NCBI GenBank assembly: GCA_029261635.1
Contig: JAJDAW010000136.1
Span: 1 to 34,979, forward strand
Direction: 5' to 3'
Source of the DNA: Nitrospinaceae bacterium
GTDB taxonomy: Bacteria; Nitrospinota; Nitrospinia; Nitrospinales; VA-1
DNA length: 34,979 nucleotides
The position numbers and the translations under genes were made by a program. The notes beneath the pieces are model-generated. The model ran no database searches and was not told where the DNA came from. It saw only the letters and a list, made by a program, of their open reading frames with translations. Of the stretch, positions 21,092 through 26,453 are shown one piece after another (the first letter of the stretch is position 1; each line of letters opens with the position of its first letter).

Positions 21092-21976
21092 TTATTTGAA
21101 ATCGTATGCCACATTCTGTTCTGTCCAACCCAGAAAACCATCCTTAGCTGGCTCACCTGTAAAATCGGTTGCCCCCTTTGCCCAGGTTTCCGGTTTATCC
21201 CAGTTATCCCCATAATGGTACAAATACATTTTTGATTTAACATCATCCGGCAAAGTATTCAACTCTTGATAGGAAGCATGCACTCCGCCAAAAAACAATT
21301 GTGTATCATGAAACATGACTTCAGCCATTTTACTGAAACGAATCGGGTAATCCTCATCGAACATCGTGTCTCCCGAAATCCAAGCACGTCGATTTATGAA
21401 AACACCTGAACACCATTGTGATTCATCAACACTGATAGCCGTGTCTGGAAAATGCCGAGTCCTCATTATCACCAGCTCAATGGGCCCGTGTTTATAGGAC
21501 CAGAACTTTCGACCATCTATCTCTATATTTTGTGGACGTAAAATGTTGAAAAAATCATTCAATTGAAGGGGACGGCCCTGATTGGCCTCACAGGATTCAC
21601 AACCTCCCGCGAGACTTTTACTCCAGAGCAGGTCCTGATAATCCCGTAGAATAATCATATCGGGTTTTTCCGCGTTGGGGGTATAGCGATTCATCAAAGC
21701 GACTTCTTCCAACCCGCCAATATGATCTGCATGGCTATGCGTAGGGTGATAGCAGCGTACTTTTAAAACACTCAGCCCTACATCATTCAAAGCCAGGGGT
21801 CCTTGCGTACCACAATCAATCAAAACATGGTGGTCGCCCTGAATGACAAGCATATTGGACTGTCGTCGACGCTTTGCAAAAGCAGAACCCGTGCCTATAA
21901 ATACAATGCGAAGATGGCCATCAGTGGTCAGGGGCAAGGGCGATCCATTTTTACAAATCTCGTTCACCTCATACAT
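21092..21976 (-). CDS. Metallo-beta-lactamase fold hydrolase (RNase Z-like)
   Basis: This 294-residue cytoplasmic protein has the MBL fold. Its dinuclear metal motif is THSHADHIGG (His80, His82, Asp84, His85), with later ligands in MRTRHFPDT, ISGDTMFD and LYHYGD. The N-terminal IVFIGTGSAFAKRRRQSNML resembles RNase Z and cyclic-nucleotide phosphodiesterase subfamilies. A Cys-rich insertion (GGCESCE, about 125-130) is an extra feature. Substrate is unknown. An AAGGAG ribosome-binding site lies 7 nt before the ATG. It heads the minus-strand run toward DUF898, but an 85-nt gap leaves open whether they share a transcript. Confidence 0.85.
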   Translation of the reverse strand: MYEVNEICKNGSPLPLTTDGHLRIVFIGTGSAFAKRRRQSNMLVIQGDHHVLIDCGTQGPLALNDVGLSVLKVRCYHPTHSHADHIGGLEEVALMNRYTPNAEKPDMIILRDYQDLLWSKSLAGGCESCEANQGRPLQLNDFFNILRPQNIEIDGRKFWSYKHGPIELVIMRTRHFPDTAISVDESQWCSGVFINRRAWISGDTMFDEDYPIRFSKMAEVMFHDTQLFFGGVHASYQELNTLPDDVKSKMYLYHYGDNWDKPETWAKGATDFTGEPAKDGFLGWTEQNVAYDFK

Positions 21977-22381: not shown

Positions 22382-23581
22382 ATGAAATATTTAGTCGTAA
22401 TTGTGGCGGGCCTGACTGACAAGCCTTTCGCTGAAAAAGATAATAAAACTCCTTTGCAACTTGCAGAGACCCCCAATCTGGATGCCTTGGTACAAAAAAG
22501 CCAATGTGGACCAGTGCAAACCCTTCCAGACAGCCTTCATCCAGGGAACGAAGTTTCTTGCCTGGGGCTTTTTGGCTACGATCCGGAAAAGTATAAAATC
22601 GGTCATGCCGCGCTCGATGCAGTTGGACTCGGAGTAAAACCTGAAGCAGATGAAATCGTTTTATGCTGCGATTTAATAACCCTTCAAGCCACCCATGACG
22701 ATATGGTGATGAAGGATTATACTGGCGGAAACTTATCCGCTGAAGACTCAGAATTTTTAATTAACGCTTTAAACGAACAGGTAACAGATGCCACGTTCCA
22801 TCATGGAAAGGGATATCATAATCTTGTAGTATTAAAAAATCCGCCGATACAGGAAAGGTTGACTCCACCCAATGAACTTATTGGTGAGGGAATAAGAAAG
22901 TTTATGCCCGAAGGAAAAGACGTGCGCGATCTTGTTTTCGTGATGAATCAAGCACAAATAGTTTTGCACAATCTTCCTTATAATCAAAAACGCACGCAGG
23001 AACAAAAAGATCCTGTTAATAGCATTTGGCTCTGGGGAAACGGCGAGCCTCCATCGCTACCCACATTCCATAAACGATTTGAAAAGTCGGCAGCCGTCAT
23101 CACCGCATCATCGATGGTTAAAGGTATTGCCAGGGCTTCAGAAATAGAAATTTTAGATGTAGAAGGGGCAACCGGTTTTTACAACACCAATTATTCTGGA
23201 AAAGTAAAAACCACTCTAGCAGAACTGGAAAAGAAGGATGTGGTCTTCTTGCATATTTCCGCGGGAGAAGAAGTTTCCCTTAAAGGCAGTATTGACGATA
23301 AAATTTTGGCGATTGAAGATTTCGATTCAGAAGTGGTCAAACCCATTGCTCAAGCGCTTGAAATGCAGGAAGAAACAAAACTATTGATTGTTGTCAATCA
23401 TGTAAGCTCCGCATCATTGATGAAGTATGACCGAGGCCCTGTGCCCTATCTGGTTTACTCTTCAAAAGCTAAAGAAGAAACTGGCGGATTAAAAAAATAT
23501 GATGAACAAATTTTAGAATCGGGGAAAAAATTTAACACCGCTCCCGAATTGATCGAAGCATTTTTAAATAACGAATTATGA
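22382..23581 (+). CDS. ApgM/iPGM-like alkaline phosphatase superfamily protein, probable pseudoenzyme
   Basis: The 399-residue protein aligns end to end with archaeal-type 2,3-bisphosphoglycerate-independent phosphoglycerate mutases and with the related proposed homoserine kinases. Family landmarks are kept: [55 protein letters not shown] and AIEDFD. The catalytic positions are not. The metal Asp of LDGMGD is Ala9 (IVAGLTDKP), the Ser/Thr nucleophile of PGSDVA is Asn56 (PGNEVS), the PDEAGH motif reads GEEVSL, the DHPTP Asp is Asn339 (VNHVSS), and the THxxDPVP His is Tyr349. Mutase or kinase chemistry of the usual type seems impossible. It overlaps lysC by 4 nt (ATGA), suggesting a role tied to aspartate-family amino acids. 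The start has no strong ribosome-binding site. Confidence 0.8.
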
Positions 23582-24873
23582 ACATGCCCTTAGTCGTACA
23601 AAAATATGGAGGCACATCGGTCGGTACTATTGATCGTATTCAACATGTTGCCCAAAGAATCGCCCGAATCCGAAAAACAGGAACCCAGGTGGTAGTCGTA
23701 GTTTCAGCAATGGCAGGCGAAACCGATAAGCTTGTAAAAATGGCCCGTCAAATTTGCGATAACCCGGAAAGAAGAGAGATGGACCTTTTACTTTCATCGG
23801 GGGAAAGAATATCAAGCGCCTTGTTGACTATGGCCCTTCAGGCTCGCGGCATTCCTGCGATCTCTATGACGGGAAGGCAGATTGGTTTGCAAACAGATAG
23901 CGTGCATACCCGCGCGCGGATTAAACAAATCGACGCTAAAAGAGCTAAACAAGCTTTAAAAGAAAACAACGTTATCGTTGTGGCTGGCTTTCAAGGCATC
24001 AATGAGCAAGGCGATGTAACCACATTAGGGCGAGGAGGCTCAGACACTTCTGCCGTCGCATTGGCGGTTGCGCTCGGTGCCTCTCAATGCGAAATTTATA
24101 CAGATGTTGATGGCGTTTATACTGCAGACCCAAGAATGGTACCAAAAGCAAAAAAGCTTAACGTGGTATCCTATGATGAAATGCTGGAAATGGCCAGCTT
24201 GGGGGCTAAAGTTCTGCAAATACGTTGCGTTGAATTTGCCCATAGGTTTCAAATGCCTTTGGTCGTAAAATCCTCTTTTATTGAAGGGGGTAAAGGAACG
24301 TTGATCTGCGAGGAGGATTCAAATATGGAACAGCCGGTGGTTTCCGGAATCATGTACGATAAAAATCAGGCGAAAATCACCTTGAAAGAAGTCCCCGATC
24401 AACCGGGTATAGCAGCAAATATATTTGGATCGATTGCTGATGCCGGTCTTTCTGTGGACATGATCATCCAGAATATAAGTGCCGAAGGCCATACTGATTT
24501 ATCTTTCACATTGGGCCGTGAAGAATTGAATGAGGGAATGGTGATCATGGAAAAAGTGGCTAAAAAGATTCGCGCTGTAAGCGTTACTGCCGATTCGAAG
24601 ATAGCTAAAATTTCCATTGTAGGTGCAGGGATGAGAAGCCATTCAGGGGTCGCAGCACGAATTTTTAAAACACTTTCGAAAGAAAAAATTAATATCCTGA
24701 TGATCAGCACTTCAGAAATAAAAGTTTCATGCATCATCGAACAAAAAAATACTAAAGCCGCTGTCAATGCGCTTCATACGGCATTCGGCCTGGACACCAA
24801 ACCAACACCAGTAAAAAGTATCGAGAAAAAAAGTAGCCCGGCCCGTAAAAAATCTAAAGCAAAGAAAAAATGA
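23578..24873 (+). CDS. lysC: Aspartate kinase
   Basis: This enzyme phosphorylates aspartate, the entry step to lysine, threonine and methionine synthesis. The 431-residue protein has the catalytic amino-acid kinase domain with [10 protein letters not shown] at the start, [26 protein letters not shown] and [15 protein letters not shown]. Two C-terminal ACT domains (around [18 protein letters not shown] and [19 protein letters not shown]) allow feedback control, probably by lysine and/or threonine. The C-terminus ends in an unusual Lys-rich tail ([13 protein letters not shown]). It overlaps the ApgM-like gene upstream and cimA downstream by 4 nt each. A second in-frame ATG two codons on is an alternative start. 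Confidence 0.96.
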
Positions 24874-26453
24874 GCTCTGTAAAAATATACGACACTACGC
24901 TTCGAGATGGCTCGCAAGCAGAAGGTGTGTCGTTCACCGTTGAAGATAAAATGCGCATCGCTCACAGGCTCGATGAGCTGGGGGTGCATTATGTCGAAGG
25001 CGGATGGCCAGGGTCGAACCCACGAGACATAGAGTTTTTTTCAAAAGCTAGTCAGGCAAACTTTAAACAAACAAAAATTACGGCATTTGGAAGCACCCGC
25101 TACCCCGATAAAAAGGTAGAAGAGGATATCGTTTTACAAGCTCTGATGAAAACCGAAACCGAAGTTATCACCCTTTTCGGAAAAACATGGGACCTGCATG
25201 TAACAGATGCCTTGTCCACTACCCTCGATGAAAACCTGAGAATGATTTTTGATAGCATCAGCTATCTCAAAAAACATAGAACGGAAGTTTTGTTTGATGC
25301 CGAGCATTTTTTTGATGGCTATAAAAATAATCCAGAATATGCGATAAAAGCAATCAAAGAGGCTGAGTCTGCGGGCGCAGACTGGATCGTACTCTGCGAT
25401 ACCAATGGAGGAACACTTCCCGATCAAGTTCATTCCATTTTCACAGAAGTTAAAAAATCCGTTTCAGTCAAATTAGGAATTCATGCCCACAACGATTCCG
25501 AATTAGCGGTAGCTAATTCGCTAAATGCAGTACGTGCAGGAGCAGAGCAAGTTCAAGGAACAGTGAATGGCATTGGCGAGAGATGCGGAAATGCGAACCT
25601 TATCTCCATTATCCCCAATTTAAAAATAAAAATGGGATTCGATTGCATTTCTGATGAGCAACTTGAAACAATAAAAGATGTTTCTTCATTCGTAGATGAA
25701 TTGGCAAATAAAGCGCATTGGAATCAACAACCGTTTGTTGGTAAAAGCGCTTTTGCCCACAAAGGCGGCGTTCATGTAAGTGCGGTGCGCAAAAATTCTC
25801 AGACCTATGAACATATCAAACCCGAAGCCGTTGGTAATAATCAACGTATCCTGATCTCTGATCTTTCCGGAAAAAGTAATGTACTTCATAAGGCCAAAGA
25901 GTTTGGCATTGATGTCGATGGGAATGACCCTAAAATTCAGAAGATACTCGCAACCCTCAAGGAATCTGAAAACCTGGGTTTTCAATATGAAGGAGCGGAA
26001 GCTTCTTTCGAATTAATGATGCGAGATGCTCTGGGTGAAAAAGAAGTCTTCTTTGAGTTTATCGGTTTCCGCGTCATCGTTGAAAAACGTCAAGAAGATG
26101 AAGAACCTATATCTGAGGCCACCGTAAAGTTAAAAGTGAACGGGGTGCAAGAGGTTTCTGCGGCGGAAGGAACGGGTCCCGTAAATGCTCTCGATAAAGC
26201 TATCAAAAAAGCATTGGTAAAATTTTATCCAGAACTGGAAGAAGTCAATCTCTACGATTACAAAGTGCGAATCCTCGAAGAGAAAAAAGGCACACGCGCC
26301 AAAACCCGTGTGCTAATTGAATCAGGCGACCATCACCATAAATGGGGAACGGTGGGCGTATCGGAAAATATCATCGAGGCCAGTTGGCAGGCTTTGATCG
26401 ATAGCATCGCTTACAAGCTCAACGCTTTTCCAAAAAACACCTCAAAACCCTAG
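24870..26453 (+). CDS. cimA: (R)-citramalate synthase
   Basis: CimA condenses pyruvate and acetyl-CoA to citramalate, giving a threonine-independent route to 2-oxobutyrate and isoleucine. The 527-residue protein has the family N-terminus [17 protein letters not shown], the metal-binding [16 protein letters not shown] region, [15 protein letters not shown], and a C-terminal LeuA-type allosteric domain from about residue 395 ([24 protein letters not shown]) to the end. The length and the [12 protein letters not shown] segment fit the long citramalate synthase type rather than 2-isopropylmalate synthase. It is the last gene of the ApgM-like/lysC/cimA operon. Confidence 0.9.

Follow-up and report, generated by a model that had tools for sequence, protein, structure and literature searches.

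What can a protein of the ApgM family do for the cell once its metal site is gone, and why is its gene kept directly upstream of the one for aspartate kinase? The question is raised by a gene of a Nitrospinota bacterium (genome 2.18 Mb, completeness 81%) that lies within a stretch of 34,979 nucleotides that was analysed as a whole and is referred to as the window. The gene encodes PGM*, an ApgM/TIGR02535-like protein of 399 residues without the metal site (22382..23581, + strand), an open reading frame backed by profile and alignment evidence. Next to it are lysC for a monofunctional aspartate kinase with ACT domains (23578..24873, + strand), whose first 4 nt coincide with the last 4 of the PGM* gene, and cimA for citramalate synthase (24870..26453, + strand; TIGR00977, 834 bits versus a cut-off of 450), which overlaps lysC by 4 nt. 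A sequence-only reading had given the same coordinates and 399-residue, full-length ApgM-family translation, and the ATGA overlaps of 4 nt that it described on both sides of lysC (23578 and 24870) are real. The Rfam scan of the window for an RNA leader returned zero matches, and promoter and terminator scans gave counts no higher than in shuffled sequence. The divergent neighbour (21092-21976) encodes a metallo-beta-lactamase-fold protein that the Pfam model Anti-Pycsar Apyc1 scores above its cut-off; an ordinary RNase Z-like enzyme is the likelier identity.

PGM* exceeds the cut-offs of both Pfam PF10143 and PF01676, and its residues 2-373 match the archaeal ApgM structure 2zkt with an E value of 1e-38. 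By full-length homology to solved members, it has the alkaline phosphatase superfamily fold. It scores 372.7 bits with TIGR00306 (apgM), above the cut-off of 320, and its alignment lacks the Ser nucleophile and, His340 apart, the metal ligands of that family. With TIGR02535, annotated as proposed homoserine kinase, PGM* reaches 356.8 bits and falls below the curated cut-off of 446.3. It also matches the PhpG model NF038358 weakly. An AlphaFold2 model computed from 18 close homologues is poor (pLDDT 51), and the only structures that it matches at E ≤ 0.001 are six ApgM chains.

The active site was compared column by column between 58 Nitrospinales sequences from four families and a reference set, which consists of ten intact orthologues, all from sister orders within the class, and six further ApgM-like proteins from the phylum. 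At columns 9, 56, 296, 300, 339, 340, and 349, the intact orthologues have Asp, Ser, Asp, His, Asp, His, and His, the last three columns being reached by nine of the ten as the tenth stops short. The corresponding residues of the window's PGM* are Ala, Asn, Glu, Leu, Asn, His, and Tyr. Across the 58 Nitrospinales sequences, the columns read A, N, S, or G (also C or D), N (also S, P, A, or D), E, L, N (also S or G), H, and Y. Hence, six of the seven metal and nucleophile columns are altered in all or nearly all of them, and His340 alone survives. Specifically, codon 9 (22406..22408, + strand) has Ala for a metal ligand Asp and drifts within the order among A, N, S, G, C, and D. Codon 56 (22547..22549, + strand) has Asn for the Ser nucleophile, with order-wide counts of N 46, S 5, P 3, A 2, and D 1. 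Codons 295-300 (23264..23281, + strand) read GEEVSL for PDEAGH, of which E296 and L300 are invariant across Nitrospinales. Codons 339-340 (23396..23401, + strand) read NH for DH, so that the Asp is gone and the His retained, and codons 348-349 (23423..23428, + strand) read KY for TH, the metal His being replaced by Tyr in 54 of the 58. Aligned with the ten intact orthologues and the six ApgM-like proteins, the substitutions named by the sequence-only reading all prove correct; Asp296 to Glu, Asp57 to Glu, and the retention of His340 are to be added to them.

The loss extends beyond the ligands. R75, R95, N97, R146, H147, D165, D244, and E293, among others, are also invariant in the ten intact orthologues and lost in Nitrospinales; R75, R95, R146, and H147 are presumably substrate contacts, going by what is known of iPGM. 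Of the outgroup-invariant columns, 23% are lost in PGM* versus 4% in LysC, the control from the same genomes, and ligand columns are over-represented among those lost (P about 4e-4). Several old active-site columns have been refixed to new residues in Nitrospinales, namely C95, N147, E165, E296, L300, and S343, whereas the columns of D9, S56, and R75 drift. The TIGR02535-specific residues S214, W216, and W218 are retained at a level of at least 90%, and the polar residues N213, Q192, and H340 are retained as well. Shifted residues probably do not supply the ligands, judging from the alignment: no gaps interrupt the first three ligand motifs, and replacement Asp or His residues are absent at the lost positions, E296 excepted.

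Searching 77 Nitrospinota genomes recovered the gene in 69 of them, including all 31 of good quality. Within this survey of Nitrospinota loci, the gutted version is found at 58 of 58 Nitrospinales loci, and the gutted proteins form one clade with an SH-aLRT of 100 and a stem length of 0.79. All six Nitrospinales versions scanned fail the TIGR02535 cut-off of 446.3 with 317-369 bits, and the three intact sister-order orthologues scanned pass it with 520-555 bits. The frames are open, 79 PGM* columns are at least 95% conserved across the order, and pairwise dN/dS is 0.05-0.13, indicating purifying selection; most values are between one and three times the LysC figure, and PGM* evolves faster than both LysC and CimA. 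Every Nitrospinales genome that yielded the gene shows the same state, the frames are open, and dN/dS is low, so that chance and sequencing or assembly error are excluded as its cause. The private decayed copy that the sequence-only reading had considered is likewise excluded within Nitrospinales, although sister orders do retain the canonical residues. Its proposal of a maintained pseudoenzyme is well supported by this order-wide, single-clade, and purifying-selected loss of the metal site. Most of the genomes are incomplete metagenome assemblies in which a single absence says little; our conclusions rest on many genomes jointly.

We then compared the gene neighbourhoods. In Nitrospinales, lysC follows the PGM* gene at 58 of 58 loci and is itself followed by cimA at 57, the one other locus lying at a contig end; the lysC-cimA neighbours thus accompany the same substitutions throughout the order. 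This invariant linkage fits the suggestion of the sequence-only reading that the protein may be an allosteric partner or scaffold for LysC or CimA. The 4-nt overlap between the PGM* gene and lysC occurs at 39 of the 57 Nitrospinales loci where the start of lysC can be recognised, the remainder ranging from -1 to +90 nt, and is absent wherever an intact gene adjoins lysC, the gaps there being 6-241 nt. The fixed stoichiometry earlier read into the overlaps is therefore overstated, as such an overlap suggests coupling rather than stoichiometry. The intact gene stands in the order hom-thrC-apgM-lysC in f7 genomes and apgM-lysC-cimA in f8 genomes. Adjacency of apgM and lysC is seen in genomes of f5, f7, and f8, most of which lack cimA at the locus, and is thus older than the loss of the metal site in Nitrospinales. 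Homoserine dehydrogenase (hom) or threonine synthase (thrC) lies within 5 kb at 6 of 10 intact loci versus zero Nitrospinales loci, 20 of which had flanks of 1.5 kb only. The threonine/aspartate pathway neighbourhood that belongs to the definition of TIGR02535 is thus present around PGM* through lysC and cimA, without hom or thrC. The tie to proposed homoserine kinases drawn by the sequence-only reading holds, since intact orthologues exceed the TIGR02535 cut-off and some of them stand in the hom-thrC-apgM-lysC order. Nitrospinales LysC has a variable C-terminal tail past the ACT domains (24750-24873 in the window), which is lysine-rich in the window's clade; most sister-order LysC proteins end earlier.

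Homoserine kinase is the step that Nitrospinales appear to lack. Both hom and thrC are present and mutually adjacent in the order, and ThrC is about 70% identical to its sister-order counterpart with motifs intact. The window genome's hom (L141:2406-3710) is broken by an in-frame TAA, possibly an assembly error. Nitrospina gracilis has been grown in nitrite mineral medium with 70% seawater (PMC3578206), and it therefore likely makes threonine. For the classical homoserine kinase (TIGR00191), nothing in the phylum exceeds the cut-off, and the best matches checked are IspE; nor was the APH-type enzyme (TIGR00938) found in these genomes. Nearly all Nitrospinales carry one full-length shikimate-kinase homologue, aroK, and one genome (G027) carries two. 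No second, shikimate-kinase-like homoserine kinase was found in the order, and the window genome's aroK copy scores 85 with the Desulfovibrio homoserine kinase model, whose cut-off is 197. Apart from PGM*, the searches of these genomes found no homologue of any homoserine kinase family. A conserved 333-residue GHMP kinase (L142:983-1981), HddA-like but far under the model cut-off and adjoining a short MlaC-like-looking open reading frame, occurs across the phylum; as sister orders carry it too, it is not tied to the metal-site loss and is at most a possible replacement homoserine kinase. A second ThrC-like protein of about 412 residues (L140:1240-2478 and L132:7735-8976) is encoded between cysteine synthase-like and ThiF/MoeB-like genes and may act in cysteine rather than threonine synthesis; at L132, a short open reading frame between these genes is a candidate ThiS/MoaD-like carrier. 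As to the genuine thrB and phosphoglycerate mutase genes that were to be sought elsewhere, neither thrB nor gpmI was seen in Nitrospinales, and gpmA is above cut-off in nearly all well-covered genomes of the order, which dismisses PGM* as the cell's phosphoglycerate mutase.

We favour the reading that PGM* is a pseudoenzyme whose ancestor was an alternative homoserine kinase and that it has been reused as a ligand-binding, non-catalytic partner of the aspartate kinase LysC, and give it a probability of about 0.5. Its ancestor would have been a metal-dependent homoserine kinase candidate of the TIGR02535 type within a cluster of aspartate-family genes. Along the stem of Nitrospinales, the protein lost its binuclear metal site, its Ser nucleophile, and several Arg and His residues, putative substrate contacts, and the gene left the hom-thrC neighbourhood. 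It was retained at the head of a compact PGM*-lysC-cimA unit, overlapping in most genomes. Phosphate transfer by PGM* would then have ended, and the remodelled cleft most likely would bind an aspartate-family metabolite. As a partner of LysC, PGM* may set or relay feedback on the flux that leads to lysine, to threonine, and into the citramalate/isoleucine branch. The refixed active-site columns, together with drift at D9, S56, and R75, suggest a kept binding cleft without a selected nucleophile. On the other side, H340, E296, and the WLWG motif could make up a partial active site, which would speak against the favoured reading.

The main rival, because the step is otherwise unfilled, is that PGM* is still the homoserine kinase, alone or with another subunit, using a rebuilt single-metal or metal-free site and hence new chemistry. 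It could be so because hom and thrC persist, with ThrC about 70% identical across the split and its motifs intact, and no known homoserine kinase was found beside PGM* as the sole family homologue; the retained S214, W216, W218, N213, Q192, and H340 agree with this. However, the nucleophile column wanders through N, S, P, A, and D and the Asp9 column drifts too, the metal ligands His300 and His349 are gone, the candidate phosphate-binding residues R75, R95, and R146 are replaced, and the gene is out of the hom-thrC context. We consider this rival possible but unlikely. A sharper form of it, in which O-phosphohomoserine is made throughout the order by a protein of the alkaline phosphatase fold devoid of binuclear metal site and Ser nucleophile, possibly only when complexed with the overlapping aspartate kinase, is a long shot; if true, it would be new phosphoryl-transfer chemistry on this fold.

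The role of PGM* might also be unrelated to LysC, whether enzymatic or binding and whether directed to CimA or another pathway, with the gene order reflecting co-regulation only. Linkage to cimA is as invariant as that to lysC, and the distance correlations of PGM* with LysC (partial r 0.46) and with CimA (0.44) do not separate the two, so that co-evolution specific to LysC is rejected and LysC is not singled out as the partner. The family is, moreover, known for other transfer reactions, and a weak match to PhpG (NF038358) was noted above. But the overlap is with lysC, and the older apgM-lysC adjacency in f5, f7, and f8 genomes is mostly without cimA, which makes a role apart from LysC doubtful.

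Most Nitrospinales, but none of the sister orders, have a threonine-aldolase-like PF01212 protein of about 345 residues (E about 1e-104), with loci on contig C17 of genome G000 (L152:72-1112) and at L153, L154, and L155. Its phyletic split is nearly that of the PGM* metal-site loss. Threonine could thus come from glycine and acetaldehyde, so that homoserine kinase was no longer needed by the time its gene took on another use. The equilibrium of threonine aldolase favours threonine breakdown, though, hom and a ThrC about 70% identical across the split remain, and a gain on the same stem may be unlinked to the metal-site loss; we regard this route as improbable. That PGM* is a decaying remnant, kept by its operon position or for translational coupling of lysC alone, would fit its faster evolution relative to LysC and CimA but is very hard to reconcile with a dN/dS of 0.05-0.13, an open frame, 79 columns conserved at 95% or more, and newly fixed columns absent from intact relatives.

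When amino-acid pathways are reconstructed from genomes, homoserine kinase is one of the steps most often missing (PMC7311316); TIGR02535 is its proposed but unproven filler. Nitrospinales, which include major marine nitrite oxidisers, are a natural experiment in this respect, as they have kept the TIGR02535 gene, hom, and thrC and destroyed the metal site. This leaves three options: the family plays another part in the aspartate pathway that is not catalytic, the order has a homoserine kinase of unknown type, or the chemistry is new.

A TIGR02535 protein has been proposed as ThrB2 from genome context (PMC9026213). Mutants of the member BT2402 of Bacteroides thetaiotaomicron need threonine, and E. 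coli thrB is not complemented (PMC7311316); its zinc sites are fully conserved (PMC9765024). The TIGR02535 branch, to which the ten sister-order orthologues belong, some in hom-thrC-apgM-lysC order, is orthologous to PGM* by tree, length, and fold. BT2402, however, keeps the seven metal and nucleophile residues, of which Nitrospinales have lost six. The archaeal ApgM proteins (2zkt, 3kd8, and 3idd; TIGR00306) match PGM* in sequence over nearly the full length but differ from it in that PGM* has no metal site and that its W216 and W218 follow the TIGR02535 type instead of the ApgM pattern. Our literature search found no pseudoenzyme of the alkaline phosphatase superfamily tied to aspartate kinase. 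HisZ is a regulatory pseudoenzyme of an amino-acid pathway; it differs from PGM* in fold and pathway, and is a dead relative set beside the first committed enzyme, as proposed here for PGM*.
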